From NCBI GenBank assembly GCA_913061285.1, contig CAJXVR010000013.1, forward strand, positions 1 to 48,205: a stretch of DNA of 48,205 nt, written 5' to 3'. The stretch's first letter is position 1, and each line of letters opens with the position of its first letter. The DNA comes from an uncultured Verrucomicrobiota bacterium (GTDB taxonomy: Bacteria > Verrucomicrobiota > Verrucomicrobiia > Limisphaerales > AAA164-E04). Shown here piece after piece: positions 14,685 through 43,225 of the stretch. Below the pieces are notes generated by a model that saw only the letters and a program-made list of their open reading frames with translations, made no database searches and had not been told where the DNA came from. A program made the position numbers and the translations under genes.

Positions 14685-14701
14685 GCTCGGTGCTTCCGAG
14701 C
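14685..14701. other. Intercistronic hairpin
   Basis: A perfect 6-bp GC-rich stem (GCTCGG / CCGAGC, 5-base loop) begins 9 bp after the pseudopilin stop, with no T-run after it. It may stabilise the upstream message or weakly attenuate reading into the repeat-protein gene. Confidence 0.35.
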
Positions 14702-14808
14702 GAGACAAGGCTTCAATTGGAGCCCTTCATTCAGATGACCACATAGATGGTTTGTTACTTGAAAGCTTTATCAAAGAAAAACGTTAGACCCACTACCACT
14801 GAAACACG

Positions 14809-17800: not shown

Positions 17801-17910
17801 ACGGTGATGTTGTTATCGGGAATGGTGAGACAATCGAACAAATCGTTCCGATGAGTGAACAAGCTGATTCTCGTTTCTATCGGCTTGTCGAAGGCGTTGC
17901 TGGAGAATAG
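14809..17910 (+). CDS. Surface protein with five anchor-M-type repeats, partner of the zinc transporter
   Basis: A 1,033-residue exported acidic protein (signal peptide about residues 1-24, ending in NANAEE). It consists of five tandem repeats of about 180-190 residues. Each begins G-E-L-D-x-E-V or similar, contains LLDEANEREI, a LPQDE/EGVLFLGIAGDEI segment and TDEFG/VDEFG, and ends with G-G-H-S-H-Q-N-W-G-F-S-A-P-G-x-Y. The H-x-H-x-x-W element resembles the choice-of-anchor M / TIGR03769 repeat, which in Actinobacteria strictly accompanies a dedicated ABC transporter of the ZnuABC/MntABC type. The last 75 residues form a beta-rich domain ending in FYRLVEG, like C-terminal domains of other Verrucomicrobial secreted proteins. 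The transporter genes lie just downstream, so a role in metal capture or display is likely. Its many Asp, Glu and His residues would suit this. Confidence 0.82.
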   Translation: MKLKFYQLLAPLFLAAVVHSANAEERQLWTDGHGDLQVGYSNGTWNWGAWLNSSPDEVSIGLTEDSKAFIPDNPNFDFLGQPGDPLWIAPQVDREGVVFLGINTSSTPVGTFDGNRFNIRLTSVSGPGDFIMWITGGAGTVDVPLNSRDGIDENDKIDSPAPGHFHENWGFTSPGTYDVGLAAEGNLAGQSTPIVSDEQIYQFAVNVFDRGELDMEVAYEGGEWELVLLDEANEKEIEAGDAALHAGPETWQTVPSNPAYSFLGNPGDGIFILPQDEKEGVLFLGIAGDEIEAGVFENDQVGLNLASVDGPGAIYLYSTDEFGAPTKYFDSADGIGEEDQFPVSVGGHSHQNWAFSAPGIYRVGLTASGVLANGTAVASDTTEFLFEVFGPTIFGEGELDLEVGFEDGEWELVGLDEANEREICAGDLVIRGSSDTQTVVPEDPSFSFLGAPGDPINVLPQEESEGVIFLGIAGDEIESGVFQGDTVELKLVSSTGPGQVSLYAVDEFGSPSVFFNTADGISDSDAFPVNVGGHSHQAWGFTQPGLYRVGLQASGQLVGDSTESLSEIVEFTFDIQTSNTAPEVFSQGEIDLEVAFEEGEFELVLLDEANEREIQAGDGILSGVASTLEPVPSDPAFGFLGNPGDRIFILPQDEQAGILFLGIAGDEIPAGEFENDSVGLHLVGVNGPGNVFLYGTDEFGSPTTYYNSANGLDGDDVFPVSVGGHSHQNWGFSAAGQYEVSLQASGVTTGSGETLQSEAITFFFEVLEPEVFNQGELDMEVVYEGGEWELALLDEANEREVEPNEALLQGVSATRQLVPEDPAFGFLGAAGSGVWVLPQEETEGVLFLGIAGDEIESGVFENDSVDLQLLDVRGPGDVSLYSVDEFGAPTVFFSSGDGLDDSDSFPVSVGGHSHQNWGFSAPGVYKVTLQAAGSLVAGSERIQSESVEFAFEIETMASELSIALGANGALVLSWPTTEGVAYQIESIAAFNGGQWSADGDVVIGNGETIEQIVPMSEQADSRFYRLVEGVAGE
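14908..17670 (+). repeat. Five tandem coding repeats (about 560 bp each)
   Basis: Repeat units begin at about 14908, 15439, 15997, 16570 and 17131. Units 2-5 are highly alike at protein level (GELDMEVxYEGGEWELxLLD at the start, GGHSHQNWGFSAPG near the end). Unit 1 is more divergent (starts GDLQVGYSNGTWNWG) but keeps the PGHFHENWGFTSPGTY motif. The spacing of 558-573 bp between units 2-5 and their protein similarity suggest duplication within the gene. Confidence 0.85.
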
Positions 17911-17934
17911 TGCTCTGAGGCCGAGGAGGGCTGG

Positions 17935-17964
17935 GGCACTTGGCATGACGGCATGTCAGGTGCC
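17935..17964. other. Stem-loop between repeat protein and merC-like gene
   Basis: GGCACTTG (17935-17942) can pair with CAGGTGCC (17957-17964) through seven Watson-Crick pairs and one G-T pair, around a 14-base loop. No T-run follows, so reading into the next gene is expected. It could separate expression of the abundant surface protein from the transporter genes. Confidence 0.35.
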
Positions 17965-17993
17965 TCTCAGTAGCTTAAGAATATTCTGAGCAA

Positions 17994-18506
17994 ATGATGA
18001 ACGTGAGAGAATCTTGTATTGATCCGATAAAATCGTTCGTGAGCTCACTTGCGACCAACTTGGGGGTATCTTGGGATCGTTTTGGGTTTGTGGCGTCGTC
18101 GCTTTGTGCGGTCCACTGCATTTGCTTGCCGTGGCTCGTGCTTGCGATGCCATTTCTTTCTCGGTCCTTAGTGGCCGACCCGTTCATTGAGCGGATGTTT
18201 GTGATCGGCTCGGTTTGTTTAGCGATGCTATGTGCGTTGGTAGGGTTCAAGCGTACGGGCGTGTGGTGGCCGTTGATACTCGTGTGTACAGGAGCAGTCA
18301 CTCTTCTCTATGTCCACGCCACGGCTCCCCCAAGTTGCTGTGCTCGTGAGATCGAATGGACCCAGGCTATTGGCTCAGGTTTTGGAGGGGGGATGTTGGC
18401 TGCCTCTCACTTTGTTGGCCTTCGCTTGAGGCGAAAGGGAAATGGGGTGTCTCGATGTCAGGCGGCCGATTGCTGTTGTGGAGATTCGGGCGACGCAGGT
18501 GCCTAG
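17994..18506 (+). CDS. MerC-like small membrane protein
   Basis: A 170-residue protein with about four membrane segments and the MerC-type motif S-S-L-C-A-V-H-C-I-C-L-P in the first one. A second Cys pair (PPSCCARE) lies in a loop and a Cys cluster (CQAADCCCGDSG) at the C-terminus. MerC proteins move soft metal ions such as mercury across the inner membrane using paired cysteines, but many MerC-domain proteins are outside mer operons and of unknown specificity. No merA, merP or merR is present. Set 47 bp ahead of the zinc-binding lipoprotein gene, it more likely handles zinc or a related metal. Two ATGs in tandem (17994 and 17997) are both possible starts. Confidence 0.75.
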   Translation: MMNVRESCIDPIKSFVSSLATNLGVSWDRFGFVASSLCAVHCICLPWLVLAMPFLSRSLVADPFIERMFVIGSVCLAMLCALVGFKRTGVWWPLILVCTGAVTLLYVHATAPPSCCAREIEWTQAIGSGFGGGMLAASHFVGLRLRRKGNGVSRCQAADCCCGDSGDAGA

Positions 18507-18553
18507 AAGGCCGGCACTCTAATGGCAATGATTGATTCTTAGACATTCTGATT

Positions 18554-19666
18554 ATGAAAGTAGAAAAGTATTTGAGTAGGGCGCTCAATGCCGTTCTGAT
18601 GGCAACGATGCTTAGTCTTTTCCTCGTAGGCTGTGGCGGGCCAAAAACGGAGTCTGCGCTCGATGGCGAGGCCCATGCTGAGGGACTACCATGCGTCATC
18701 GTGTCCACGACAGACCTCATGGGGATTGTCGAAGCGGTTGCGGGTGATTTGGTGGAGCTTCACTGTTTCGGAAAAGGGAATCAGGATCCTCATTCTCTGG
18801 ATATTCTTCCGAGTTACGTTCGTGAGATGAATGATGCCGATCTCTGGATTCAGGTTGGCAATGACATTGAAGCGGCTTGGTATTCCGATTTGATGGCCAA
18901 CGTGAAGAATACCAAGATTGCTGAAGGGGCTGACGGCTTCATTGATACGTCGAATCTCGTGATGCCACTTGAGGGAGCTGTTGGTTCTGTTACCGGTGTT
19001 GGGCATTCGAGCGGCTTGCATCCAGCAGGGAATCCTCACTACCTACTGGATCCCATCGAAGGGATTCGAGCTGCCAAGCTGCTTGCGGATCGATTGAGTG
19101 TCATTATGCCGGAGCAGAAGGGAGTGTTGCAGCAGAATTACGATTCGTTCCGTAAGCAACTAGCGGAGGCATTGATCGGGGCGGCCTTGGCGGAACGTCA
19201 CGATGTCATTGAGATTGCGGATCTTTATCTGAATGACGGGCTAACGGATTTTCTCAGCAAACAGTCCCATGAGATTACTTTGGGAGGGTGGTTAGCGAAG
19301 CTGGAAAAACACCGAGGGACTCCCATTGTGGGAGATCACGATTTATGGCCTTACTTTAGCCGTCGGATTGGGCTTTCTGTGGTGGGCTATTTCGAGCCGG
19401 AACCCGGCTTCCCCCCCACGACCAAACACCTTCGAGTCTTGATTGACCAGATGAAGAAGGAATCGGTTCCTGTGATTTTCTCGGCGCCCTATTTTGATGC
19501 TCGGCATGCCCGGTTTGTTTCCGAAAACACGGAGGCTGAAGTCCTGCCCATGTGTCATCAGACGAAGGCGCGTCCTGGCACGGATTCCTATTTTGATATG
19601 GTTCGCCACAACATGGAGACCGTTATTACAGCCCTGGGCGGGGGAGCCAATGGGAACCTCAACTAA
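18554..19666 (+). CDS. znuA: Zinc/manganese ABC transporter substrate-binding lipoprotein
   Basis: A 370-residue cluster A-I (ZnuA-like) binding protein. A lipobox L-V-G-C places the lipidated Cys at residue 27, so it is tethered to a membrane. Metal-ligand candidates in the expected order are His80 (NQDPHSLD), His162 (GNPHYLLDP) and His262 (GDHDLWPYF). The His-rich loop typical of ZnuA is short (VGHSSGLHPAGNPH). Unlike the actinobacterial homologues that pair with anchor-M repeats, it carries no repeat of its own. It is 15 bp upstream of the ATPase gene. Zinc is favoured over manganese by the Zur-type context. Confidence 0.9.
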   Translation: MKVEKYLSRALNAVLMATMLSLFLVGCGGPKTESALDGEAHAEGLPCVIVSTTDLMGIVEAVAGDLVELHCFGKGNQDPHSLDILPSYVREMNDADLWIQVGNDIEAAWYSDLMANVKNTKIAEGADGFIDTSNLVMPLEGAVGSVTGVGHSSGLHPAGNPHYLLDPIEGIRAAKLLADRLSVIMPEQKGVLQQNYDSFRKQLAEALIGAALAERHDVIEIADLYLNDGLTDFLSKQSHEITLGGWLAKLEKHRGTPIVGDHDLWPYFSRRIGLSVVGYFEPEPGFPPTTKHLRVLIDQMKKESVPVIFSAPYFDARHARFVSENTEAEVLPMCHQTKARPGTDSYFDMVRHNMETVITALGGGANGNLN

Positions 19667-19681
19667 GACTACCGACTCAAA

Positions 19682-20557
19682 ATGAGCGAAGACATTCTTA
19701 AACAACTGGGCCTTGACCGTCCTTCTCGGCAGGGCGAGGCGGCTGCCAACAAGCCGAGTGGGAAGTTCATTGACAAGACTCCTGCGATAAAAAATCCCAT
19801 TGTCGAGATTCAGGAAGCCAGCTTCGCATACGGTCGGAATGTCATCTTAGAATCGGTGGCGATGAAGATTCATGACAGTGAGTTTTGGTGCTTCATCGGT
19901 CCGAATGGGGAAGGGAAAACGACGCTAATCAAGGCCCTGCTCGGGGCGCTCCGTCCCAAGCGTGGCTTGGTTCGTCTGCGAGCGGATTTTGCGCGTCGGA
20001 CGCGGATTGGGTTTGTGCCTCAAAAATGTGACCTCAATCCCAGTGTGCCCACCACAATTCAGTCGTTCGTGACACAGGGCACGGCCGGGCTCGCGGTGGA
20101 CCAGTCAAAGTTGAAACGCCGAGTCCAGAAATCGATGGATGTCATGGGGATTCAGCGTATTCGGGAACGGAGTATTTGGAAGGTTTCCGGGGGGCAACGC
20201 CAGCGGGCGATGGTCGCTCGAGCCTTGGTGCGAGATCCTCTGTTGATGATCGTCGATGAACCTACCGCTGGCTTAGATCTCGCGGCTTCCTCAGGACTCT
20301 TGAAGACGATTACGGAGTTGAATCAGCAGCATCGAATCACCGTGATTTTTGTGACCCATGACCTGCAGCTCGCAGGGCGCTATGCCACTCACCTTGCCGT
20401 CTTTAAGAACCGACGGGTGAAATGTGGTCCTGTCGGGAATGTGCTGACGGGAGAGAATTTGGAGATGGCGTTTGGGGTGCCCACCGAAGTGACGGCGGAG
20501 GCATCGGGAGGGTATACCGTGCGGGCAAATGTGGAACATCCAGAGTTAGTGTCATGA
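19682..20557 (+). CDS. znuC: Zinc-type ABC transporter ATP-binding protein
   Basis: A 291-residue ATPase with a 40-residue N-terminal extension before the core. Walker A is G-P-N-G-E-G-K-T-T (residues 73-81), where the common sequence is GPNGAGKST. The Q-loop is VPQKCDLNP, the signature SGGQRQR (169-175) and Walker B LLMIVDEP with catalytic Glu193, followed by the D-loop AGLD and the H-loop VTHD. Its stop overlaps the permease start by four bases (ATGA), so the two are translationally coupled. It energises the ZnuB-like permease. Confidence 0.93.
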   Translation: MSEDILKQLGLDRPSRQGEAAANKPSGKFIDKTPAIKNPIVEIQEASFAYGRNVILESVAMKIHDSEFWCFIGPNGEGKTTLIKALLGALRPKRGLVRLRADFARRTRIGFVPQKCDLNPSVPTTIQSFVTQGTAGLAVDQSKLKRRVQKSMDVMGIQRIRERSIWKVSGGQRQRAMVARALVRDPLLMIVDEPTAGLDLAASSGLLKTITELNQQHRITVIFVTHDLQLAGRYATHLAVFKNRRVKCGPVGNVLTGENLEMAFGVPTEVTAEASGGYTVRANVEHPELVS

Positions 20558-21387
20558 TTGCGGAGTTTCTTGAATCGTGGTCTTTGTTTTCTAGCACGTA
20601 CATCAGTGCGTTGCTGATTGGGTTATCCTTGTCGCTCATGGGCGTTGTCGTGGTTGCGCGTGGGAATGTGTTTGTTGCGGCAGCCGTAGCCCAGGCTTCG
20701 ATGTTAGGCGTTGCTTTGAGTTTGTTTTTTAGCCTGGGACAACCGGTGTTGACGGCAGTTTTCTTCTCGGTCGGAGCATCCCTGTTAGTGGCACGGAAAC
20801 ATCAGGAGGGGGGGGATTCCACAAGTGAAGAGATGACGGGTTGGATATTCTTGGCCAGTGGAAGTCTTTCCGTGCTTCTGTTGGCAAGAATGCCGTATGG
20901 ACTAAAGGAAATTCAGTCCCTTTTCTCGTCGAGTATCATTGGTGCTGGCTCGTCAGATATTGTTGTGTTTGGAGTGCTGGTCGCCTTCTTCGTGGTTTTT
21001 CTGCTGCTGAGGATGCGTCGATTGACGCTGTACTTATCGGATCCAGTGATGGCCGCTGCCGTCGGAGCGAACATTTTTCTGTGGTCAATTGCCATCGCCA
21101 GTTCCTTGGGCTTGACCACGGGCTTGGCGATTCGATCTTCGGGGATGTTGTTCACATTCGGTTGCATGGTTTTACCTGCTCAAATGGCCAAGAATTTGTG
21201 CCGCGACATTCCTGGAATGTTCTGGGTCGCTCCGCTGCTGGCGTTCGGATGTGTCCTATTTGGCCTGATCTTCGGCAATTTCTACGATTTGCCTCCAGCT
21301 CAGACAGTGGTTGCCCTGATGTCTCTCATGCTTTTGTTGACATGGGGATTTCGATCCGCACGCGAAACCGTCTTTTCCAGCGCCTAG
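20554..21387 (+). CDS. znuB: Zinc-type ABC transporter permease
   Basis: A 277-residue ABC-3 family permease starting at the ATG that overlaps the ATPase stop. A longer open frame begins inside the ATPase gene, but that part is its shadow. There are about eight hydrophobic helices. Family features include YISALLIGLSLSLMGVVVVARGNVFVAAAVAQASMLG near the start and a long SLFSSSIIGAGSSDI loop. Two-fold use of this subunit with the ATPase is expected. Within the family it is closest in type to permeases for zinc, manganese and chelated iron; context argues for zinc. Confidence 0.92.
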   Translation: MIAEFLESWSLFSSTYISALLIGLSLSLMGVVVVARGNVFVAAAVAQASMLGVALSLFFSLGQPVLTAVFFSVGASLLVARKHQEGGDSTSEEMTGWIFLASGSLSVLLLARMPYGLKEIQSLFSSSIIGAGSSDIVVFGVLVAFFVVFLLLRMRRLTLYLSDPVMAAAVGANIFLWSIAIASSLGLTTGLAIRSSGMLFTFGCMVLPAQMAKNLCRDIPGMFWVAPLLAFGCVLFGLIFGNFYDLPPAQTVVALMSLMLLLTWGFRSARETVFSSA

Positions 21388-21417
21388 AGCGACCCGAATA
21401 GAAATCTCCAGCTTGAA

Positions 21418-23994
21418 TTGAACGCCCGCAGCCGATTTAGCCTAGGATTACTCCTGACCGTACTCAGCGGGGCGGCTGCCTTGTCTCATCAGCTCCTCTG
21501 GACTCAACGCATGACCGATCTCCTCGGTTCAAGCGTGGAGTCGACGACTCGGGTCTTTGGCTGCTTTTTTCTGGGCTTGTCATTGGGGGCTGGAGTGATT
21601 GCGTTCTATATCGCGAGAATCACCCGTCCGTGGCGGGCGATGGCTTTGGCCGAGTTCGGAGTCGCTCTCTTTTGTCTTCCGGTCCTGGGCCTGTCGCGTT
21701 GGACGGATTGGATTTGGCCGTGGCTCGGTAGTGAGGGGCTCATGGGCTGGCAAGGCGCCTTGATCAAGCTGGGGCTTTCGGTGGCAGTTATCTTCCTCCC
21801 GGCCTTTGCCATGGGCATGGTGTTCCCGTTACTTGTTAAGGGGGTTGTCGCTGAGACGAGCGCTGAGAGTGCCACGAGCGGTTGGCTTTACGCTGCCAAT
21901 ACTGCGGGTGGTGTGATTGGGCTGGGGGTGACCGCGGGATATGCGCTTTACTCATTGGGAGTGAGCGGGGCTCTTTGGTTGGCCTTGTTGCTGAATGTCA
22001 TTGTTGGCCTCGTGGCCTATTGGCTTGACCGGCAGACGAACAAGGCTGCAGGGAAGAAGGTGCTGGGGAAATCTGCTTCTGTTGGACGGGATCTTCTGAA
22101 AGCCCTTGGTTGGAAGTTGATTCTGAGCGCTTTTCTGTCTGGAGCCGTGATTCTCGGGCTCGAGATCTTGGCTATGGAGCTGGTCATGCTCGTGGCGCCC
22201 TTGTCGTTTTATGCGCCCGTCTCCGTCTTGGCTTCGTTTATTTTGGCCTTAGCAGTTGCTGCGGGCTTGGTTCCGGTGATTGGGAAATATGTGGCGACGT
22301 CGAACACATTCTTGTTTGGCGTGTTTATGGCAGCGGGCGTGGCGACGGTGATTGCGCCGATCACGTTGGTGCGACGGGGGGTCGAATCTGGGGGGCTGCA
22401 AACCTTCGATGGTCTATTTGGATTTACGATCTCGATGTCAGGCTTGGTTCTCCTTTCATTTGGTCCCGGATTGCTCATTGCGGGAACCGTGTTTCCGACG
22501 CTCATGAGGATGCTCCCCAAGCAATCCGATCGTAGTGCTGCGATTGGGACTCTCTTGGCTGTTAACGGATTTGGGGGACTTGTCGGCGCGGAATTGGCTT
22601 ATCGAGTTTTGGTTCCTTCGGTGGGAATCTATCTCGGGATGGGAGTGGTTGCGCTAGTCTACGTGCTCGCCGCGAGTTTGTGGATGGGAAGGGCTGACTC
22701 ACAACGATGGTGGAAGCGAGGTTTCGTAGTGCTTGGCGTTGGTTTCGTCGTTTTTGTTTCCGCGGTTTCGTTGCGGCATCTTCCGGTCGTGAATCCCAAT
22801 ATCGGGCTCAAAGTCCTCGAACTCAAAATGGGGAGAGAGGGGAAACTGGCCGTTGTTGAGCATGAGAGTTTTGGGCGTGGCCTATTGTTTTCCAACCAAT
22901 ATCTCCTCGGCAGTACGAACGTGCGTTACGATCAAGAGCGCCAGGCCCATGTGCCGCTACTTTTGCATCCAGAACCTAAACAGATTTGTTTTCTCGGGCT
23001 GGCGACCGGTATCACGCCATCCGCCGCACTGCAGCATTCCACGATTGAATCGATTGAGATCGTCGAATTGTCTCGCATGGTTGTCGAGGCTGCTGGGGAA
23101 TTCTTTTCGGATTACAATGCAGGTATTACCGAATCGCCAGCCGCGCGGATCGTCGTGGAGGATGGGCGAACCTTCATTGCTTCCCAGCCGAATCGGTATG
23201 ACGTCGTCATCGGTGACCTGTTCCTCCCATGGCGAGCTGGTGTGGGACGATTGTACAGTGTGGAGCATCTTCAGGCTGTGAAGGCATCGCTACGCTCAGG
23301 AGGCCTGTTTTGTCAGTGGCTACCACTCTATCAATTCACCGCAGAACAATTGGAACTGGTAATGAGCACGTTCCAAGTCGTGTTTCCCAAGGCCTATCTA
23401 TTTGAGGGCAAGCTGGAACTGGGGGCCCCAGTTCTGGCGATGGTGGGCTATCGTGATGGAGATCTTAATTGGCAGGACGTGGAGCAGGCTTGTGATCGGG
23501 AACGGCAGCTGAACCGAATCAAGGATCCCACCGTTCGTCATGTCGAGGGGCTCGCCCTGTTATTTCGTGGGGGCTTGGAAGAGAAATTTGTCACGACGGA
23601 TATCAATCGCTTGAACAACATGGAACTCGAACTCCAAGCGGGCCTTCATCGGATTCTCGATAGTTCTGGGAAGAACTATTTGATTGGTGAGAAATGGGCA
23701 GCACAAACCGTTCAACGAGTTGCATTCGCAGAATCATATTTGGAGCAACAGGGAATAAGTAATCTTGGAACACTCCCGAGGCAGGGTAGGCAGATTAGCT
23801 TGCTTCGCAATGGGCTTGAGGGGCCTGAACCCGGGCGAAGTTCGATTCTTAAACGTGTGTTTGCCATGATTCCTCAGATGCTCCGCGGTGATCGCGATGC
23901 CGATTGGAGGAAATGGGCAGGGCCAGCGATAGGGGTTCGCTGGAAACCAGGTGAAGCGGAGCAGAAGGAACGAGAGACAACTGAGAACAATTGA
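21418..23994 (+). CDS. Membrane-fused spermidine-synthase-like protein
   Basis: An 858-residue fusion. The first 450 or so residues hold about 12-14 membrane helices (start TTG at 21418, opening FSLGLLLTVLSGAAALSHQL, typical of this family). Residues 470 to about 720 form a spermidine-synthase/SAM-methyltransferase fold with ICFLGLATGITPSAAL, IEIVELSRMVVEAAGEFF, VVEDGRTFI and YDVVIGDLFLP. The normal spermidine synthase GGGDG loop is replaced by G-L-A-T-G-I-T, so aminopropyl transfer is not assured. A soluble tail follows. Such fusions are common in Planctomycetes and Verrucomicrobia, mostly without known product. Here it lies 30 bp after the zinc permease and 18 bp before an exporter gene, which suggests a metal-linked task, for example making or moving a small polyamine-like metallophore; that is speculation. 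Confidence 0.8.
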   Translation: MNARSRFSLGLLLTVLSGAAALSHQLLWTQRMTDLLGSSVESTTRVFGCFFLGLSLGAGVIAFYIARITRPWRAMALAEFGVALFCLPVLGLSRWTDWIWPWLGSEGLMGWQGALIKLGLSVAVIFLPAFAMGMVFPLLVKGVVAETSAESATSGWLYAANTAGGVIGLGVTAGYALYSLGVSGALWLALLLNVIVGLVAYWLDRQTNKAAGKKVLGKSASVGRDLLKALGWKLILSAFLSGAVILGLEILAMELVMLVAPLSFYAPVSVLASFILALAVAAGLVPVIGKYVATSNTFLFGVFMAAGVATVIAPITLVRRGVESGGLQTFDGLFGFTISMSGLVLLSFGPGLLIAGTVFPTLMRMLPKQSDRSAAIGTLLAVNGFGGLVGAELAYRVLVPSVGIYLGMGVVALVYVLAASLWMGRADSQRWWKRGFVVLGVGFVVFVSAVSLRHLPVVNPNIGLKVLELKMGREGKLAVVEHESFGRGLLFSNQYLLGSTNVRYDQERQAHVPLLLHPEPKQICFLGLATGITPSAALQHSTIESIEIVELSRMVVEAAGEFFSDYNAGITESPAARIVVEDGRTFIASQPNRYDVVIGDLFLPWRAGVGRLYSVEHLQAVKASLRSGGLFCQWLPLYQFTAEQLELVMSTFQVVFPKAYLFEGKLELGAPVLAMVGYRDGDLNWQDVEQACDRERQLNRIKDPTVRHVEGLALLFRGGLEEKFVTTDINRLNNMELELQAGLHRILDSSGKNYLIGEKWAAQTVQRVAFAESYLEQQGISNLGTLPRQGRQISLLRNGLEGPEPGRSSILKRVFAMIPQMLRGDRDADWRKWAGPAIGVRWKPGEAEQKERETTENN

Positions 23995-24012
23995 GAGATT
24001 GAGAGTGTCGAA

Positions 24013-24969
24013 ATGAGTACAGGTAACCTATCAAGCGGATGGCAGCACGACCACTCCTTTGGGCAAGAAAAGAAGCGGACCGGCGAGAGCCGAACCATCC
24101 TCGTGATCGCGATCACTGCGTCAATGATGGGGATCGAGATTGCTGCTGGTGTGGCGTTTGGATCAATGGCCTTATTGGCTGATGGTCTGCATATGGCATC
24201 ACACGCTGCAGCGCTTTCGATTTCCGCGTTTGCCTACTACTTTGCAAGAAAGCGAGCTCACGACCGTTCGTTCAGTTTTGGGACGGGAAAAGTGAACTCT
24301 CTCGGTGGTTACACGGGGGCTGTTTTGTTGGTGCTATTTGCCTTGTTGATGGTCTGGGAAAGCGTTCATCGGCTGATCGCTCCGGTGGCGATTTCATTCA
24401 ATCAAGCGATTTCCGTGGCGTTGCTTGGATTGATTGTGAACGGTGTGTCCGTTTTCATTCTTGGCCATGAGGAGCATCATCATCACGGACATGAACATGG
24501 TGGCGAGGGTGGAGATCATCATCATGATCACAACCTACGGGCTGCCTACCTTCATGTATTGGCGGACACATTGACGTCCCTCCTTGCGATTATTGCGCTG
24601 CTCGCTGCGAAGTACTACGGCTGGATCTGGATGGATCCCTTGATGGGCATTGTTGGTGCTATTCTCATCTCGAAGTGGTCGATGGGATTGCTCAAACAAT
24701 CGGGAGCTGTGCTGCTGGACCGTCAGGGTCCCGACGCACTCATCGAAAACGTAGTGAAGCGAATCGAGTCATTGCCATGCAATGGCGAAATTGTTGATCT
24801 CCATGTCTGGGCTATTGGGCCAAATATTTATTCGACTGCGATCACCGTGGTTGCTGACACCGAAAACGTTGCGGCCCTTCTTAAATCCGAACTGCGCAAT
24901 CTCACCTCGATCGTTCACTCAACCATTGAAGTGCATCAGCGCCGGAGCGGACTCGAGAAGACCGAGTAA
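24013..24969 (+). CDS. dmeF: DmeF-like cation diffusion facilitator
   Basis: A 318-residue CDF exporter with six membrane helices. The N-terminal H-D-H-S-F is characteristic of the DmeF (cobalt/nickel efflux) branch. The transport-site motifs LLADGLHMASH and YLHVLADTLTS provide the Asp/His ligands. A His-rich cytoplasmic loop (HEEHHHHGHEHGGEG and more) lies between helices 4 and 5. The C-terminal domain (DLHVWAIGPNIYSTAITVV) is the usual metal-sensing ferredoxin-like fold. It is the last gene of the rightward zinc set. An exporter in an uptake operon may remove cobalt, nickel or excess zinc let in by a derepressed importer. Confidence 0.88.
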   Translation: MSTGNLSSGWQHDHSFGQEKKRTGESRTILVIAITASMMGIEIAAGVAFGSMALLADGLHMASHAAALSISAFAYYFARKRAHDRSFSFGTGKVNSLGGYTGAVLLVLFALLMVWESVHRLIAPVAISFNQAISVALLGLIVNGVSVFILGHEEHHHHGHEHGGEGGDHHHDHNLRAAYLHVLADTLTSLLAIIALLAAKYYGWIWMDPLMGIVGAILISKWSMGLLKQSGAVLLDRQGPDALIENVVKRIESLPCNGEIVDLHVWAIGPNIYSTAITVVADTENVAALLKSELRNLTSIVHSTIEVHQRRSGLEKTE

Positions 24970-29300: not shown

Positions 29301-30659
29301 TTAGTGGAGGCCGTAACGATTCATTTTGTAGTGAAGGGTTCGAACACTGATGCCAAGTGCTTTGGCGGTTGCCCCCCGATGGCAGTCGTTTGCTGAAAGT
29401 GCGAGTTTGATCACTTCTTGCTCAGCAACCTCTGCGGCTTCGGCGAGAGTGGTTAATTGGTTGGGGCGTTCTTTTGTGCGGGGGGCCAAGTCATTTGGGA
29501 GATGCTCAACTTTCACAATCTCGTCAGGCACCGTGACAACGATTCTCTCAATCAGGTTTCTCAGTTGTCGAATATTTCCTGGCCAATTTGCTAGTGACAA
29601 CGTTTGTATCGCGTCTGAGCTGAATTGTTTCTTGGGGCGATTGTGGCGGTGGCAGAAGTGCCGCATATAGTGTTCAATGAGGAGAGGAATGTCGTCTCGA
29701 CGCTCGCGGAGTGCCGGTAGCTTGATGGGGACAATATAAAGGCGGTAATAGAGATCCTCTCGAAATGTACCGTCCTCAATAAGTTCAAGAATATCCTTGT
29801 TCGTTGCAGAAACAAGCCTCGCGTCTGTAGTCAACAGGGCTTCGCCGCCAATTCGGTTGAACTGCCCAGTCTCGAGGACTCGCAGTAGGTCTACCTGGCT
29901 TTTGGGAGGCATCTCGGTGACTTCGTCCAGGAAAAGCGTTCCGCGTGATGCCCTTTCGAAGCAACCGGGTTTCATGCGGGCAGCACCCGTGAATGAACCC
30001 TTTTCGTGGCCGAAGAGTTCACTTTCTAGAAGTGTTTCGGGGAGGGCGCCAAGATTGACTGGGACAAAGGATGCTTCTTTCCTTGGACTGAGATCGTGGA
30101 GAGCTCGAGCGATGAGCTCCTTGCCCGTGCCGCTCTCCCCGTGAATGAGGACTGTCGCATCGGTTTGAGCCACCTGCCGTACTTGACGGAAGACGTCCTG
30201 CATCGCGGCACATTTCCCTATCATGCCTGCAATTTCTCCCGCATCCGCTAGTCGTGTTTTCAATTCGCGGTTCTCAGCCTTTAAAGACTGGTGTGCTAGA
30301 GCCTTTCGGACTTGCTGGCGAATCAATTCTAGATCGACTGGTTTGATAATAAAATCAAAGGCCCCTCTGCGCATGGCGTCAACGGCGGTCTCCAAGGTGC
30401 CGTGCGCCGTAATTACGATGACTGCGGTGCCAGGGTTCCTTTTTAAAACCTCCGACGTCAGTTCTAGCCCGCTCATGTCGCCGGGCAGACGCACATCAGC
30501 GATGATTAGCTGATAGTTTCTGTGAGAAATTGATTCGAGCGCTTCGTTCGCGTTCTCAGCCGTGTCGACATGTTCCGCTTCCCTTGCAAGCCCTTTTGCT
30601 AAGCCCCGCCGAATGTTTGGCTCGTCATCGACGACTAGGATGTTTGCCTTATTGCTCAT
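29301..30659 (-). CDS. NtrC-family sigma54-dependent response regulator
   Basis: A 452-residue regulator. The receiver domain has acidic residues DDE at 11-13, phospho-acceptor Asp55 (IIADVRLPG) and Lys in FIIKPVD. The AAA+ domain has Walker A GESGTGKE (174-181), the sigma54 contact loop as G-S-F-T-G-A (221-226; the common form is GAFTGA), LFLDEV as Walker B and FREDLYYRL. The C-terminal Fis-type helix-turn-helix is GATAKALGISVRTLHYKMNRYG. It overlaps the kinase gene by four bases (ATGA), so the two form one two-component system. The likely target is the divergent dabA promoter, which has a sigma54 -24/-12 match and inverted repeats upstream. Confidence 0.93.
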   Translation of the reverse strand: MSNKANILVVDDEPNIRRGLAKGLAREAEHVDTAENANEALESISHRNYQLIIADVRLPGDMSGLELTSEVLKRNPGTAVIVITAHGTLETAVDAMRRGAFDFIIKPVDLELIRQQVRKALAHQSLKAENRELKTRLADAGEIAGMIGKCAAMQDVFRQVRQVAQTDATVLIHGESGTGKELIARALHDLSPRKEASFVPVNLGALPETLLESELFGHEKGSFTGAARMKPGCFERASRGTLFLDEVTEMPPKSQVDLLRVLETGQFNRIGGEALLTTDARLVSATNKDILELIEDGTFREDLYYRLYIVPIKLPALRERRDDIPLLIEHYMRHFCHRHNRPKKQFSSDAIQTLSLANWPGNIRQLRNLIERIVVTVPDEIVKVEHLPNDLAPRTKERPNQLTTLAEAAEVAEQEVIKLALSANDCHRGATAKALGISVRTLHYKMNRYGLH

Positions 30660-32023
30660 GTTGTCGTTTGGGGCGCTGTTCGAGGCTGTTGCCGTGGCAG
30701 GGTAAGATGAAATGTCGTTCCTTCCTTATTGCTTGTGAAATCAAGGATTCCGTTGTGTTGTCTCGCGATCTTATCGCAGAGCGCTAGTCCCATTCCTGTT
30801 CCCCCACTCTTTGTTGTGAAGTAGGGGTCGAAAATCTTGTTTTTGATTTTTGCTGGTATGCCTGATCCGGTATCGCAGATGCTCACTGTGGCTCCCTCAT
30901 TTTCTTGATGAATTGAGAGCGTGAGCGTTCCTTTCTGTGCAATCGCTTCCATCCCATTGAGCATGAGATTTAGCAAAACTTGTTCCAAGCGACCCCTGTC
31001 TGCCTCGATTGGGACCTTGGTTTCAGGGCTATGAATCTTTAGTTCAACATTAATCTTTTGGGTCTGGGCTTGGGGGCGAATAAGACTGACTTGCTGTCTG
31101 ACAAGGCTTACCAGGTCTATGGATTCGATATTGAGCCGGTCGATCGATGCGTAGTCGCGGAAATTCTCGAGAACCCCACCAACTCGATGGACTTCCGATC
31201 GAATGATTGCCAATGTCTCCTGGGTTTCTTTGGAGCTCGCTTCTTCCAATTGTTCATCGAGTAGTTGGACGTGAAGAGAAAGGGCGGCGAGGGGGTTTTT
31301 TATCTCGTGGTGGAGTCCGGCCGCGAGGGAATCGAGTCCCATGAATCGCTCGATTCGGCGTAGCCGATCCTCAGTTAGCGCCTGCTCCGTAATATCGCGA
31401 ACTTGAATGACACTGCCGATGATTTCTTCTTGGTGGCTTCGGAGTGGTTGGCAGTTCAAGCGAAGGGTCGTTGCGGGCGATGGGGAAAGATTCTCGCTCC
31501 GACCCTGTCCTTTCCTAAACGCAGAGCGCTGCCAAAATGCCTCGAGTGGGAGTTCTGTGGATAAGTTTGCCAATGGTTGATTGATGGAATCGGAAGTGGT
31601 GTGAAGAAGTTCGAATGCTCTGCGATTCATGCTAGTAATGACGCCACTAAGGTCTGTCGTGATGATCCCTTGATCGACACTGGTAAGGATGTCGCTTGCC
31701 AAGGCTTTGATGCGCTGGAGGTTTCGTTGCGAACTTCGGTAGGCATTCCACAGGAGTTGAATAGCGAAGCCGGTTACGATGAGGTTTAAGACGACGAGTA
31801 GCGCAAGTCTGAACTGCCAACGAAGTTCTCCCGCAAGCGTTCTAGCTTCATCGGCAGGACCGTCGGGAAGTTGCTCAATGAGGTGGTGCACTATTTCCTG
31901 CTCTTTGAGGAAATCATACATGATCCACAGGGTGATTCCCAGAGCGGTCATACTTAGTAGGAGAAGGCCGATGATCGCTAGGCGGTGTCCCTTGCTTGAG
32001 TCTTGGGGCTGTGTCCGAAACAT
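30656..32023 (-). CDS. Membrane PAS-type sensor histidine kinase
   Basis: About 455 residues from the ATG at 32023; the open frame extends to 32137, but the extra 38 residues are polar and would push the first membrane helix away from the N-terminus. Two membrane helices (about 15-35 and 72-95) bracket a short external loop rich in Glu/Asp/His. A PAS-like domain follows (ILTSVDQGIITTDLSGVI). The dimerisation helix carries H-E-I-K-N-P-L with phospho-His239, and the ATPase domain has NLMLNGMEA, DTGSGIP and GGTGMGLAL. The signal is unknown; with carbon-uptake genes opposite, bicarbonate, pH or a cation are candidates. Confidence 0.9.
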   Translation of the reverse strand: MFRTQPQDSSKGHRLAIIGLLLLSMTALGITLWIMYDFLKEQEIVHHLIEQLPDGPADEARTLAGELRWQFRLALLVVLNLIVTGFAIQLLWNAYRSSQRNLQRIKALASDILTSVDQGIITTDLSGVITSMNRRAFELLHTTSDSINQPLANLSTELPLEAFWQRSAFRKGQGRSENLSPSPATTLRLNCQPLRSHQEEIIGSVIQVRDITEQALTEDRLRRIERFMGLDSLAAGLHHEIKNPLAALSLHVQLLDEQLEEASSKETQETLAIIRSEVHRVGGVLENFRDYASIDRLNIESIDLVSLVRQQVSLIRPQAQTQKINVELKIHSPETKVPIEADRGRLEQVLLNLMLNGMEAIAQKGTLTLSIHQENEGATVSICDTGSGIPAKIKNKIFDPYFTTKSGGTGMGLALCDKIARQHNGILDFTSNKEGTTFHLTLPRQQPRTAPQTTT

Positions 32024-32132
32024 TATCTTGTCTAATTGCTGCTGGTTGTAGCTGGTTTTCCCTATGCGGGGCAATGTTTTGCTGCTTGAACTATCGAATC
32101 TTGCTTCAGGGCAAGGATCATTGTGGGCGATG

Positions 32133-32157
32133 TGCAAAAAGTTGCAGTCTTCTGCAA
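32133..32157. promoter_or_regulatory. Overlapping inverted repeats, candidate upstream activator sites
   Basis: TGCAAAAAGTTGCA (32133-32146, 5-4-5) overlaps TTGCAGTCTTCTGCAA (32142-32157, perfect 6-4-6), with a further GCAA-G-TTGC just after. They lie 105-130 bp upstream of the sigma54-type promoter match, the usual place for binding sites of an NtrC-type activator. Confidence 0.55.
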
Positions 32158-35493: not shown

Positions 35494-36894
35494 ATGGAGA
35501 TTATTTGGGAACCCTTTGTCTCGGTGCTTGGTCTTACCGTTGTCTTCAGTCCCGCAGTACTGTTCGCGCTACTCTGTGGTGTTTCGCTTGTCGGAGCACC
35601 GCTGAGTGAACGAACGATCGCTAGATCTATTCAGCTGGCTGTTTCCGTTGGATTCGTAGCGGCTCTTGGACTCTTGCTCTCAATGTTGGCAACGGGCCTT
35701 CACGAGTTGTCGCTTGAATTGGGAGATTGGGTTGCGATTCCTGATCAGCATTTTCATTTCCATCTTAAATTTGTCTTCGATCGTCTTTCGGTTCCATTTG
35801 TTATTCTGGTGTATGGACTGTGCGGGATTGTTGGAGCGTTCACGACTCGTTATCTTCATAGGGAACCAGGGTTTGGACGCTTCTTTGTTCTATACTCTGT
35901 CTTCTTGATGGGGATGGTTTTTTCAAGCCTGGCTGGTACTATTGAGGCTCTTTTCTTCGGATGGGAGTTGGTTGGTTTGTCTTCCGCTCTCCTGGTTGGC
36001 TACTTTCATGAAAGGGCGAATCCAGTCCGTAATGGTCAACGTGTGTGGAGCGTCTATCGGATTGCTGATGCGGCGTTCTTAGTTGCTGCAATTTTAGTGC
36101 ATCATCTTACGGGATCGGGCGACTTTAGTGTGTTGATGGGCGATGGGCTTTGGCCGGCGGGGTCGGTTGCACTAAGCGAAAAGCATGCTTTACTTGTCGG
36201 TCTCTTATTGTTGGCAGCAGCGGCTGGCAAATCTGCTTTGGTTCCGTTTTCTGGCTGGTTGCCTCGTGCGATGGAGGGCCCGACCCCCTCGAGCGCTGTT
36301 TTTTATGGAGCTTTGTCTGTGCACTTGGGAGTTTTCCTTCTCCTACGTGTTGGGGGGCTCATCGAGCGATCCATCGTCTTGATGGTGGTCGTGAGTGCTC
36401 TCGGATTGGTTACCGCTGTGTATGCGATGCTGGCGGGACGGGTGCAGAGTGACATCAAGAGTGCGCTTGCTTTTGCCTCCCTAACACAAGTTGGAATAAT
36501 CGTATTCGAAATTGGTGTCGGACTAAGGTTTTTACCTCTCGTTCACATTATTGGCCATGCCTGTCTCCGTACGCTTCAGTTGCTGCGGGCGCCGACCCTA
36601 TTGCATGATTTTCATTGGATGGAGAATGCTGTAGGGGGACATCTTACGAGTGAGATTTCGGTTTGGCATCGATGGATTCCAAAATGGACTCGCCTCTGGC
36701 TTTATCGCTTCTCATTGGAACGCGGATTCTTTGATGAATTACTAGATGAGTATGTGGTGCGACCTGTGATTCGTCTCTTCCGCTGGAGCAATCGAATGGA
36801 GGAACGATGGACTCGGTGGCTCTCCATGGAATCGACCAGCTCAAAGCCACCTAGGCCAGCCTCTGAAAGCTCGCTGGAGGACTACGCGAAATGA
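35494..36894 (+). CDS. dabB: DabB-type NuoL-like membrane subunit
   Basis: A 466-residue polytopic protein of the proton-translocating NADH-quinone oxidoreductase family. Family segments include [17 protein letters not shown] (with the conserved Glu), [24 protein letters not shown] and [16 protein letters not shown]. It partners DabA in coupling H+ or Na+ entry to inorganic carbon uptake. Its C-terminal 100 residues are soluble and basic. It starts two bases after dabA and overlaps the next gene by four bases (ATGA). Confidence 0.9.
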
Positions 36895-38357
36895 TGGAGC
36901 TACATTTGCCATGGTTAGAACTGGCTATCCTGATACCCATTCTTGGGGCTCTTTGGATTGGTAGGATTCGAGAGGCTAAGCTGGTCCGAAGGCAGACCCT
37001 TTTTGTCTGTGCGATAACGCTCGGGCTTGCGATCGGAGAATGGATTGATTTCGGGACATTGCATACTTTCGAAGCGCATGATCACTGGGATTTGGTCCAC
37101 CGGGTGACCACGGTCGACATTCTTGTGGTTGACGAACTGAGCGCTCCGTTGCTCCCGCTAACAGCCCTTGTATTTTTGATGACTGTTCTGTCCACCTTGC
37201 CAAGCAAGGCTGGAAGGTTTCCGTTTCGATCGGCTCTTATTTTACTGGGCATGTGCATGGCGATCCTAAGCTGTCGTGAGCCTTGGGTGATTGTCTCGTT
37301 AGTGAGTCTAATGTGTGTGCCAGTTGCTGCTAATATTCGGGAACGAAAGCGGTCTAGTACCGTCTTCTATCTACATATGGGAATGATGTCTGCCTTGCTT
37401 GGTGGTGGGCAGCTTGTCCTCTCCTTGCCTGGTGTAGAAGGAAACGTGCGTCTAGGCGGAGTTCTTCTGTTGACGTTTGGGTGCTTGGTTCGAAGCGGAA
37501 TTGTGCCTGTGCACTGTTGGCTGACAGATATGTTTGAGAAGGCGAGCATGGGGATTTCTTTGCTCTTTGTATCGCCCATGATAGGTGCCTACCTAACGAT
37601 GCGCCTAGTGTATCCTGTGGCGCCGAGCTGGCTTTTGAAGGTGATTGCTGGGGTGTCATTGGTCACCGCAATTTATGCTGGGGGAATGGCCTTGGTTCAG
37701 GTTCATTCACGACGCTTTTTTTGTTGTCTTTTCCTAGGGTTCTCATCTTTGGTGCTAGTCGGCATCGAACTGGCCACCCCGATTGGATTAACCGGGGCTC
37801 TGTGTATTTGGCTGTCTGTTGGGCTTTCTTTGGCCGGCTTTGGTCTTTCTCTCCGGTCCCTGGAAGCTCGCACGGGACGTTTATCCCTTCGTGACTATCA
37901 TGGGCTATACGAGCATACCCCCAAGCTGGCTGCATTGTTCTTGCTCACCGGATTGGCCTCAATTGGGTTTCCTGGAACGATAGGGTTTATTGGGACGGAG
38001 CTTCTAGTTGAAGGGGCTGTGACCTTCTTTCCTGCCGTGGGAATAGCGGTTGTGACTGCTGCAGCACTAAATGGAATTGCGATTCTTTCGGTGTATTTCA
38101 AGGTGTTTACTGGAACGGTTCACCAGACAACGGTCGACCTTCGCTCACAGCCTCCAGAACGGATTGCATTACTAGTACTCGCCGTCTTGATTATTGGAGG
38201 CGGAATCGTACCTCAACCCGGAGTCGCTTCGCGCTATCATGCGGCTCGTGCTTTGTTAACTCAACGGGAACGGATGTTAGCTACAGACGGGGAGAGCTCT
38301 CCATCTATTCCAGCGCTCCACGGTCAAATTACTGAAAAAGCCGGACGCATGAAGTAG
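36891..38357 (+). CDS. Second Nuo-like (NuoM-type) membrane subunit of the Dab system
   Basis: A 488-residue polytopic protein with about 13-14 helices, distantly NuoM-like ([28 protein letters not shown] corresponds to the K-P-x-H-x-W-L helix; [22 protein letters not shown] is the family segment near helix 12). Typical Dab systems described to date have one such subunit; here two are encoded in tandem with overlapping stop and start. It could widen the ion path or act as an alternative DabB. Several charged residues of true NuoM appear replaced, so it may not pump. The identification as part of the transporter is from position and family. Confidence 0.8.
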
Positions 38358-38506: not shown

Positions 38507-40489
38507 ATGACAAACTCGGTGCCTCGCGGGAATTTTGAGGGATTTGTTCAGAATCTCAAAAAAGATCTGACCTCTGGATTCTTAGTCTTCTTAATAGCAT
38601 TGCCTCTCTGCTTAGGTATCTCGCTCGCTTGTGGCTACCCGCCGATTGCAGGAATTTTTACTGCAATTATCGGTTCAATCTTAACAACTTTCATCAGCAA
38701 CTCTGAGCTGACGATCAAAGGGCCAGCGGCAGGCTTGATCGTGATCGCAATCGGATGCATTGAGGACTTCGGAGGGAATGGAATGGTCGGGGGATGGACG
38801 AATGCAGATATATCTGCCTATCAGGCTGCTCTCGCTGTGGGGGGCGCGGCAGCCGTTCTGCAGATCCTTTTTGGTCTCTTTAGGGCGGGAATTCTTGGTG
38901 AGTTCTTCCCGCTTTCCGCGGTGCACGGAATGCTCGCTGCGATCGGGGTCATCATTATTATCAAACAGTTTCCGGTTGCCTTAGGTGTTTCCGCTGGAGG
39001 CGAACCAATCGAGATGTTGCGGGAAATACCTCACTATATCACGGAGGCGAACCCTGCCATAGCTGCGATCGGATTCGTGAGCGTGCTGATCATGTTTCTG
39101 TGGCCATCACTAGGGAAAAAGCTTGGGTCACTGCGTGCTGTACCTGCTCCGATGGTGGTGCTTCTTGTGGCTGTCCCAATGGGGATGGGGTTTGATCTGC
39201 TCCATGAACACGCTTACACCTTGCAGGGACACCAGTATCAACTAGGTGAACAATATCTCGTCAAGATGCCCGATCGCGTCTTTGGAATGTTCGATGATAT
39301 CACCACTCCCTCATTTGCAGTCTTGTCACAACCGAAAGCTTGGAAATGGGTCATGATGTTCTTCATTATCGGAAGCTTAGAATCTCTATTGAGCGCGAAA
39401 GCGATAGATCTCCTCGATCCATGGAAGAGGAAGACAAGTATGAATCGTGATATGGTCGCGGTTGGAGCCGGGAACCTATGTGCTGCCTTAGTGGGGGGCT
39501 TGCCAATGATTTCTGAAATCGTGCGTTCGAAAGCAAATATCGATAATGGCGCGCGAACGCGGTTTGCTGACATGTGGCATGGTATTTTTCTGTTGGCATG
39601 CGTGGCTCTCATACCAACGATTCTCCATCGTATCCCGCTTGCCGCGCTTGCTGCCATGCTCGTGTATACAGGGTATCGTTTGGCTCACCCAACGGAATTT
39701 GTTCACGTCTATCGAATTGGAAAAGAGCAACTCGCGATTTTCGTGACGACCTTGGTTGTCGTTCTGGCAACAGATCTATTGATTGGGGTGGCTGCCGGTA
39801 TCATGCTCAAAATGCTGATTCATGTTGCCAATGGAGTGCCTTTGAGATCGATGTTCAAACCCTATCTCGAAGTGCAGGAAATTGATGGTAGCACGAGCAA
39901 GATTGTTGCAAGGGAGTCGGCTGTTTTCAGCAATTGGATTCCTTTCCGTCGTCAAATCGAGCAAATCGGTTTGGTGCAGAAGCGAAATCTTGTTGTGGAC
40001 GTTTCTGATACGAAGTTAGTGGATCACTCGGTGATGGAGAAACTCGACGAAATTGAGCGAGACTTTCGACAAGAAGGGCTAGAGTTTACTGTGGTAGGAT
40101 TGGATTCCCTTCAGCCCTTCACGAGCGATTCTCACTCTGCGAGGAGGCAGGGGCTGGTCTCCATGAAACGACTCACGATAGTCACCGAAGCCTCTTTAGA
40201 GAAGAAGCTTCGAGAGCATTTTCCGAAGGTGGGAGCTACCGGATACACGAGTGTGCCCTGCACAGGTGCAGGGCGCCGAGGTGTCGATGTAGGTAACAAA
40301 TCGTCGAAAGCTCTCGTCCGGCTGGAAGTCGTGTGTCCGAACGATGTGGCCCAGGAACTTCTGATGCATATCCGCAATCAATTCATGGTCCAGCACCCCG
40401 TTACAGTATGTGTTGAATCAGTGGATGTGGTTCGACGAGATAACTTCATGCCACAACCTCCGGATGCGATCCTGGAGCATGCCCAGTGA
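38507..40489 (+). CDS. SulP-family anion (bicarbonate) transporter with STAS and C-terminal PII-like domain
   Basis: A 660-residue SulP/BicA-like transporter. The membrane part opens with [30 protein letters not shown] and has [17 protein letters not shown], the SulP signature region. Bacterial relatives include sodium-bicarbonate symporters. Residues about 460-540 form a STAS domain ([22 protein letters not shown]). Residues about 552-650 are extra and read like a PII-type signalling domain: [49 protein letters not shown] and [14 protein letters not shown], with the G-Y-T and V-x-V-V-R landmarks. An ATG at 40163 with AGGGG nine bases upstream could also start a free PII-like protein. The gene follows the NuoM-like one by 149 bp. 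Bicarbonate as substrate is inferred from dabAB and carbonic anhydrase nearby. Confidence 0.87.
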
Positions 40490-40958: not shown

Positions 40959-42434
40959 GTGAATTTTCGTCAAATATCCAAACTTCTGGGCTATCTTCTC
41001 TTGTTTGTCTCTCTCGGGCAAACGGCTTGTCTTGGATTCGCTTACTGGGACCACGAATGGGGGACCCCTCGGATTGACGCCGCTGAAGGATTTCTGAATT
41101 CCTTGATTTCAAGTTTGCTCGGAGCCCTCGGCTTAATTGCCTTTGGGTGGCGGGCAAGCGGTGATCTCTTGCGTCGTGAGTCGGTGTCTGCGGTTGGATT
41201 TGGGTGGGTCGTTTGTACCTTGTTTGGAGCGATTCCTTTCGCCCTCTGTGAACCTCGATTGGATGTTGCGGGAGCGATCTTCGAGTCCGTATCAGGGTTT
41301 ACAACGACCGGTGCATCAGTGATTGAAGACCTAGAGAACGTACCTCGCAGTGTACTCTTGTGGCGTAGTCTGACGCAGTGGTTTGGGGGGATGGGTATCT
41401 TGGTTCTGTTTGTCGCTCTCGTCGCGTCAATAGGGGCGAGCAGTAAGGCGTTGTTTCGGCATGAGTCCTCGACAATGGAAACAGAGGGCTTCTCGCCTCG
41501 AATTCAACGAATTTCATCGCAATTATGGGGTGTCTATTTTTGCTTTACCATCGTCGCATTCCTGGGGCTGTATGCTTTGGGAATGGGGAAATTTGAAGCG
41601 GTATGCCACACGTTTGCCGTCGTTTCGACTGGCGGATTTGGAACCCATAGTTTGAGTGTGGCGTATTTTGATAGCATGGCGATTGAGCTGTGGCTGACTC
41701 TCATGATGGTAATCGGGTCCATTAATTTTATGCTCTATGGATGGTTGGTTCGGGGGAGGTGGGATCGCTGGCGCCAGGACGAAGCGAGTCGATACTTTAT
41801 TCTGACGATTTGTCTTTCGACTCTGATCATCGCTACAGATCTAATGATATTCGGAGGGGAGGAATCCATTCTAGATAGCTTTCGGATCAGTTTGTTTCAA
41901 GTTGTCTCCATAATGTCGACGACCGGATTCACGACGGCTGACTACGGACGTTGGCCGGCGCTCTCGGATGTGATATTGCTGTTGCTGATGTTGGTGGGAG
42001 GTTGTGCCGGCTCAACGGCAGGCGGTATTAAAGTTGGACGGTGGATTCTCTTCTTTAAGATTTTGCGCCAAAAGTTGGTTCAGACTTTCCGTCCTAACCT
42101 CGTTTCTAGACTGACGTTGAATGGTAATCTCGTAACGGATTCCCTTCGAGTTGACTGTTTGTTTCTCATTGTCGTCGCGGGCGTGTCGATTGTTTTTGGG
42201 ACGCTCTTGGTGAGTTTGCTCCAACCTGAAATGGACATCGATAGTTGTCTCTCTGCTACGATTGCAACCTTGTTCAACATCGGGCCGGGATTGGGGGCGG
42301 TTGGTCCCGTGGAAAACTATGCGTTCTTGCACGCGCCAACCAAATTGGTGCTCGCGTTTCTCATGCTGTTGGGACGGTTAGAGTTTTATGCGCTCTTGGT
42401 GATTTTTGTGCCATCCCTTTGGAAAAAATACTGA
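40959..42434 (+). CDS. trkH: TrkH-family potassium/sodium uptake channel
   Basis: A 491-residue TrkH/KtrB-type cation channel with GTG start at 40959. The four selectivity-filter loops are visible: [33 protein letters not shown] and [12 protein letters not shown], each with the central Gly. The membrane-interior segment [15 protein letters not shown] is also present. No TrkA/KtrA regulatory subunit is in the window. Between a SulP transporter and a carbonic-anhydrase gene it probably balances charge or supports the cation gradient used for inorganic carbon uptake. The PTS-IIA-like protein nearby belongs to a class known to touch potassium transport in other bacteria. Confidence 0.9.
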
Positions 42435-42517: not shown

Positions 42518-43225
42518 ATGATTATTTCTGGAATGAAGCAAACGTATCTACAAAAACTGAAAGTGCCTCAGAGGCGTATGGGGGATGTCCTCTCACGTGG
42601 GACGGATAGGAATGTTCTTATTGAAGCCCGCTCAAACGAATATTCAGCCGAAGAACGATGGTTGGTAGAGCTTGAAGAGGGATATCGTCGCTTCCAGCGT
42701 AAGAGGGAAGGGGGAGGTGGCCATCGTCAAAAAACAGCACTGTTTTCTTCAAACGACGAAGACCTTGCCCCGGACACCATCGTGCTGGGCTGCTCTGATT
42801 GTCCCTACACGCCCGAAGCTATTTTTGGTTGGGCGTTTGGATCTCTTGTTGTGACTACAAATCTTGGCAATCGAGTCGCAACAGACGTTATCGACCAGAT
42901 TCGCGACGTGCTGTCCAAGCGATCCATCGATTTAATCGTAGTGTTGGGACACGAGAAATGCTCTGCTGTGGAGACCATGGTAAACTTTCAAGCAGATCCA
43001 AAGTTTTCTAAATCCCTCTCGAACTATTTAGGGAATGCGGGTGAGGAAATTAAGTTGATCCAGCCAGTGGAAAGCCAAGAGAATTTTGGTGCAACTTGGG
43101 CTGAGAAGAATGTGATCGCCGGCGTCGAGAAACTGAAAAACCTAGATATCGGTGAAAGCTGCAAAATCTCAGGGATCGTGGTTGATCTGGAAACGCTTGA
43201 TCGTTCCTTTCGCACCTACGTCTAG
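42518..43225 (+). CDS. Divergent beta-carbonic-anhydrase-like protein
   Basis: A 235-residue protein with GGTGGA a few bases before the ATG at 42518; an ATG at 42533 is a second option. The beta-carbonic anhydrase fold is indicated by IVLGCSDCPYTPEAIFGWAFGSLVV and LIVVLGHEKCSAVE. Zinc ligands Cys92, His145 and Cys148 are kept, and Asp94 is present, but the Arg of the usual C-x-D-x-R dyad is Pro96 and the RNAGN loop reads TTNLGNR. Activity is therefore uncertain; it may be slow, allosteric or a binding protein. It closes the dab-SulP-TrkH set, 83 bp after trkH, where it would interconvert CO2 and bicarbonate. Confidence 0.82.
   Translation: MIISGMKQTYLQKLKVPQRRMGDVLSRGTDRNVLIEARSNEYSAEERWLVELEEGYRRFQRKREGGGGHRQKTALFSSNDEDLAPDTIVLGCSDCPYTPEAIFGWAFGSLVVTTNLGNRVATDVIDQIRDVLSKRSIDLIVVLGHEKCSAVETMVNFQADPKFSKSLSNYLGNAGEEIKLIQPVESQENFGATWAEKNVIAGVEKLKNLDIGESCKISGIVVDLETLDRSFRTYV

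Follow-up and report, generated by a model that had tools for sequence, protein, structure and literature searches.

A three-gene Dab inorganic carbon transporter of Planctomycetota and Verrucomicrobiota in which DabB and a NuoM-like subunit may share one proton path

The window analysed here, the whole 48,205-nucleotide stretch of DNA from an uncultured Verrucomicrobiota bacterium, carries three consecutive same-strand genes that encode the DUF2309 protein DabA, a short NuoL-like DabB and a further membrane protein, DabM (Table 1). The PF10070 profile matches DabA with an E-value of 1.9e-229 (764 bits against a cut-off of 25), and this copy is the sole DabA in the host genome. A sequence-only reading of the locus had called the third protein NuoM-like, and this wording is right both by profile and by fold, the structural matches being NuoM chains at Z of about 45. 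No other nuo genes were detected among the larger ORFs of the window that were searched against Pfam, and no member of the MrpA-G set was found among window ORFs of at least 200 aa.

Table 1. Genes and features of the dab locus and its surroundings in the window
Feature	Positions	Strand	Profile or remark
2337-aa protein	86-7099		HYDIN/ASPM-type Ig-like domains and BNR-like repeats
CobW-type GTPase gene, ZnuA/ABC zinc-uptake-like set, cation efflux gene	11164-24969		upstream of the zinc-dependent dab cluster
Neighbouring gene with a same-genus homologue	21418-23991		75% homologue
Sigma-54 response regulator	29301-30659	-	divergent from dab cluster
Histidine kinase	30656-32137	-	divergent from dab cluster
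dabA, long type, 1047 aa	32348-35491	+	PF10070
dabB, short NuoL-like, 466 aa	35494-36894	+	PF00662 and PF00361
ATGA stop/start overlap, dabB/dabM	36891-36894	+	
dabM, NuoM-like, 488 aa	36891-38357	+	PF00361; best NCBIfam match NDH_I_M
SulP family transporter	38507-40489	+	C-terminal P-II domain
TrkH-like cation transporter	40959-42434	+	neighbour of dab cluster
Beta-carbonic-anhydrase-like protein	42518-43225	+	active-site motif altered

Several of the surrounding genes merit a brief description. In 34 of 71 loci the gene immediately after dabM encodes a SulP transporter. Several other loci of Planctomycetota and Verrucomicrobiota (e.g. L052, L123 and L139) also have a histidine kinase and a sigma-54 response regulator next to the Dab cluster, and the divergent pair in the window is a possible regulator of the dab cluster. 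The beta-carbonic-anhydrase-like protein has CSDCP in place of the CxDSR motif of beta-carbonic anhydrases and retains HxxC; judging from the motif, the Asp-Arg dyad seems to have lost its Arg, and the protein is possibly inactive or a sensor.

The earlier reading took the four-base overlap of dabB with the second Nuo-like gene as a pointer to a three-part complex and proposed that dab loci be surveyed for tandem Nuo-like genes. A scan of GTDB genome contigs with a three-sequence DabM alignment yielded 80 loci, which their record titles place in Planctomycetota and Verrucomicrobiota, and genome searches contributed two further loci, L140 (genome G046) and the very diverged L137 (genome G292). 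Both genes are readable in 75 loci, and in every one of them dabB comes first, with dabM following on the same strand. The two genes overlap by four bases in 32 of these loci and by one base in 18 (50/75 together), so the overlap in the window is not a chance arrangement. The dabA gene is readable in 60 of the 75 loci and is on the same strand in every one of them. Schlesneria sp. RYN_441 has two copies of dabM, in a dabA-dabM locus and a separate dabB-dabM locus (L086 and L102); DabM thus accompanies either partner.

Since these loci were collected through DabM itself, we also used a test that is independent of it, selecting genomes by DabA alone and then searching them with a DabM profile. 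As in the window, DabM was found in all six genomes with a clear long-type DabA, with scores of 126-557 bits; this range includes a further genome, G040, which also has a DabM match and whose long-type DabA is represented by an ambiguous fragment only. In the 24 genomes with canonical DabA only, the same search found DabM in none (0/24), the top score being 73 bits, a value typical of ordinary complex I or Mrp subunits. On plasmids the DabM matches were only weak (24-25% identity, in Rhizobium). The idea that dabM is an unrelated transporter gene merely sitting beside dabAB is therefore very improbable: the linkage in 75/75 loci together with the DabA-selected genomes leads us to reject a chance or independent neighbour, and the tight overlap and the split A-M and B-M loci argue in the same direction. 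A three-gene form of Dab thus exists in Planctomycetota and Verrucomicrobiota, and gene order, co-occurrence and the correlated sequence changes described below support A-B-M well as a three-part unit at the gene level, as the earlier reading had suggested.

The structure of DAB2 from Halothiobacillus neapolitanus defines the zinc ligands of DabA2 as C351, H524 and C539, next to a D353/R355 dyad (PMC13144422). The equivalents in the window DabA, a zinc subunit resembling beta-carbonic anhydrases, are C519, D521, R523, H707 and C722 (for C351, D353, R355, H524 and C539, respectively), and all five zinc-ligand and acid-base residues are retained in 60/60 DabA proteins of the clade. In contrast, Glu444 of the DabA finger, whose replacement by Ala or Gln abolishes DAB2 activity (PMC13144422), has no equivalent in any of these 60 proteins, which carry Ala, Gly, Thr or Ser instead; the 26-residue finger stretch of the window DabA likewise lacks it. 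The residue is present in 32/32 canonical DabA proteins, a small sample made up of 23 from the host's phylum (23/23) and nine from plasmids of Pseudomonadota, Actinomycetota and Halobacteria (9/9). No acidic substitute for Glu444 occurs in the aligned column of the 60 clade members, and their finger remains a single hydrophobic stretch. In the DabA tree all sampled ABM members group in a single clade, whose local support is full. The correlated changes may accordingly represent one historical event and not repeated co-evolution; with one clade, a single origin is enough to explain them.

The AF2 model of DabB (pLDDT 83) comprises eleven TM helices followed by a 33-residue C-terminal helix, which we take to be the lateral helix (HL) of NuoL. 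The model aligns, with a gap, to residues 1 to about 562 of NuoL. Helices TM12-15 are missing from the clade: the number of predicted TM helices after TM11 is zero in 71/71 clade DabB proteins versus two to five in 19/19 canonical ones. Conversely, GluTM5 is present in 71/71 clade members and in none of the 20 canonical DabB proteins compared, again a small sample. The remaining NuoL ion-pair residues (Arg, Asp and LysTM7) are invariant in the clade, and the window DabB retains E158, R189, D192, K246, K322, H351 and H355. Two further positions are changed throughout, H260 to Tyr and K347 to Arg. DabB2 (9rd0_B) matches DabB by sequence and is not among the best 50 fold matches of the DabB model. 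In DAB2 the GluTM5 position of DabB is occupied by Ile151 (PMC13144422).

DabM presents a different combination of an intact fold and decayed residues. Its AF2 model (pLDDT 92.6) shows the NuoM fold in full and aligns to NuoM chains at 2.2-2.8 A across 439-457 residues (for 4he8_G, Z 45.6 with 439 residues at 2.2 A). We compared the key positions of 72 DabM proteins with those of 30 NuoM/NuoN/MrpD-like proteins from related genomes. GluTM5 is found in 0/72 DabM versus 30/30 of the comparison proteins. LysTM7 is Arg in 70/72 (R201 in the window), the Lys of the DLKR motif is Arg in 72/72 (R274), and the TM11 His, present in 29/30 comparison proteins, is absent from nearly all DabM (V310 in the window). 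The TM12 Glu is gone from its own position, and a Glu is found one residue later in 71/72 DabM proteins (E370 in the window). These losses bear directly on the possibility that DabM is a second working pump in a complex with a stoichiometry of at least two ions per CO2. Such a role would suit the full-length NuoM fold, and it is in line with a published proposal for operons of this kind (PMC5700660); with GluTM5 absent, Arg at the LysTM7 and DLKR Lys positions and the TM11 His lost, we judge two full pumps unlikely. The 'two antiporter-like subunits' of the earlier reading, if understood as two pumps, hence find no support in a DabM without the NuoM proton-relay residues and a DabB without TM12-15.

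What, then, could a conserved NuoM-like subunit without its relay residues contribute? In complex I, NuoM adjoins NuoL on its GluTM5 face. The cytoplasmic half-channel of DAB2 consists of DabB TM4-11, and its periplasmic half is formed by the DabA finger with Glu444 together with DabB TM12-13 (PMC13144422). Given that Glu444 has been lost from DabA and TM12-15 from DabB, the periplasmic side is most likely contributed by DabM; and since the relay residues are lost in DabM and the helices in DabB, there is probably one proton path shared by the two proteins and not two pumps. As the simplest reading of the gene linkage, the folds and the residue and helix losses, we propose that DabA, DabB and DabM would assemble into a three-subunit, PMF-driven complex for vectorial CO2 hydration. 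DabA would trap CO2 as bicarbonate at its cytoplasmic zinc site, as in DAB2, and DabB would provide a NuoL-type cytoplasmic half-channel in TM4-11 with GluTM5, Arg, Asp and LysTM7 plus the central Lys and His residues. DabM would dock on the GluTM5 face of DabB, as NuoM does on NuoL, and would provide the periplasmic side, with the TM12 Glu (E370) as the protonatable residue through which the proton passes; rather than acting as a second pump, it would complete a channel shared with DabB. In our estimation the chances that DabB and DabM share a single proton path, with DabM on the periplasmic side, are about even. Somewhat more tentatively, we suggest that the clade may have lost the periplasmic half-channel of DAB2 (Glu444 plus DabB TM12-13) and may use in its place a separate NuoM-like subunit that is otherwise inactivated, which would amount to a clade-wide different proton exit and to one channel split across two proteins.

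In the main rival to the shared channel, DabM carries no protons and has a structural or gating role: it would clamp DabB and set the open or closed state of the GluTM5/LysTM7 ion pairs, while protons would exit through DabB and DabA alone. The periplasmic half of DabM is itself not intact, the TM11 His and both Lys being gone, and these losses keep the clamp or gate alive as an explanation. It is also consistent with the absence of GluTM5, LysTM7, the DLKR Lys and the TM11 His from nearly all DabM proteins and with the invariance of the NuoL-type ion-pair set in DabB; moreover, DAB2, which has no such neighbour, has one of its ion pairs dissolved, and restoring Glu at position 151 halves its activity (PMC13144422). 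A silent subunit does not readily account for the nearly invariant E370 in TM12 (71/72), nor for the fact that Glu444 has no acidic replacement in the aligned DabA column and TM12-15 have no replacement helices in DabB. We therefore regard the clamp or gate as a serious possibility but a rather doubtful one, and retain the shared channel as our preferred reading.

The origin of the cluster in its host can be addressed from the DabA tree, in which the window DabA nests among Planctomycetota; G046, a genome of the same order as the host, groups with the Verrucomicrobiota rows, and by this kinship the host appears to belong to that phylum. DabA was not found in congeners of the host, and a nearby gene of the window (21418-23991 in Table 1) has a 75% homologue in a genome of the same genus. 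Taken together, these observations indicate that the cluster was probably acquired horizontally. Mis-binning of the contig was considered as the source of the Planctomycetota-like sequence; we prefer horizontal transfer given the same-genus homologue, although some doubt remains. Note that the host genome measures 8.0 Mb versus 4.8-4.9 Mb in three same-genus genomes, which may be a large expansion or a mixed bin and leaves some doubt on mis-binning. No RuBisCO match was found in the host genome (assembly 89% complete), and use of the bicarbonate in biosynthetic carboxylations is for this reason more likely, we infer, than use in the Calvin cycle. Dab carbon uptake is here placed in a host in which RuBisCO was not found.

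Dab loci with an additional antiporter-like gene were already known, and the premise of the earlier reading, that described systems are usually a DUF2309 protein plus one NuoL-like protein, is incomplete: the pair is described, but both the 2017 COGNAT analysis and the functional three-gene DAB1 had added to it. In its accessible text, COGNAT described NuoM and SulP genes as frequent members of operons in which ybcC (DUF2309) lies upstream of nuoL, and suggested that additional membrane subunits translocate additional ions (PMC5700660). Its 'clade C' ybcC-nuoL-nuoM-SulP operons, with dabA upstream of nuoL, COG1008 (NuoM) and COG0659 (SulP), match the present locus by gene arrangement; as far as that text goes, the report was an observation of gene neighbourhoods without analysis of residues, helices or mechanism, made when the function was still unknown (PMC5700660). 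The DAB1 operon of H. neapolitanus, which is functional in E. coli, has three genes, and the interstitial one belongs to PF00361 (PMC7714395). Like the ABM form, DAB1, with a relative in Nitrobacter hamburgensis, combines three genes, a long DabA (about 1040 aa) and an additional membrane protein of the PF00361 type (PMC7714395), but its order is B-X-A with an X of about 253 aa, whereas the ABM order is A-B-M with an M of 488 aa. In the Nitrobacter DAB1-like system DabA has Glu444 and DabB has TM12-15 and lacks GluTM5. The middle gene of the Nitrobacter locus (L160, 3890-4651) matches the C-terminal half of NuoM weakly (E 0.0016), which suggests a half-NuoM subunit. The DAB1 middle protein gave no Pfam match and no significant hhalign match to DabM; with the weak NuoM match (E 0.0016) as the only hint, its homology to DabM is left as a lead.

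MpsAB of Staphylococcus aureus likewise pairs a DUF2309 protein with a NuoL-like one for inorganic carbon supply; it differs in that, in the available description, there is one NuoL-like subunit, Na+ use is proposed and a NuoM-like partner is not described. With NuoL and NuoM of complex I the ABM subunits share their folds, and DabB has all four NuoL ion-pair residues, but DabM lacks the NuoM proton-relay residues and nuo genes were not found among the neighbours searched. The closest mechanistic reference is DAB2 (DabA2-DabB2; PDB 9rd0; PMC13144422). Both systems have the DabA zinc site with its Asp-Arg dyad and a NuoL-like DabB TM1-11 with equivalents of LysTM7, K310, H339 and H343. The ABM clade differs in having no Glu444, no DabB TM12-15 and an added NuoM-like third subunit; its DabB has GluTM5 for Ile151, Tyr for H260 and Arg for K347, and its gene order is A-B-M, as against B-A in the canonical loci examined.

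The new part thus appears to be the anatomy, namely the loss of Glu444 and TM12-15, the retention of GluTM5 and the decay of the relay residues in DabM; these correlated changes were not found in the literature searched, a search whose scope did not extend to many subscription papers. According to the 2026 DAB2 structure, the coupling of proton flow to CO2 hydration centres on Glu444 of the finger and on the TM12-13 region of DabB, and here a clade spanning two phyla keeps the catalytic site, has lost both of these elements and has a conserved third subunit instead. If the ABM complex works, coupling without Glu444 is possible, and the clade would be a natural experiment on how antiporter-like subunits share a proton path, a question that is open for complex I too.
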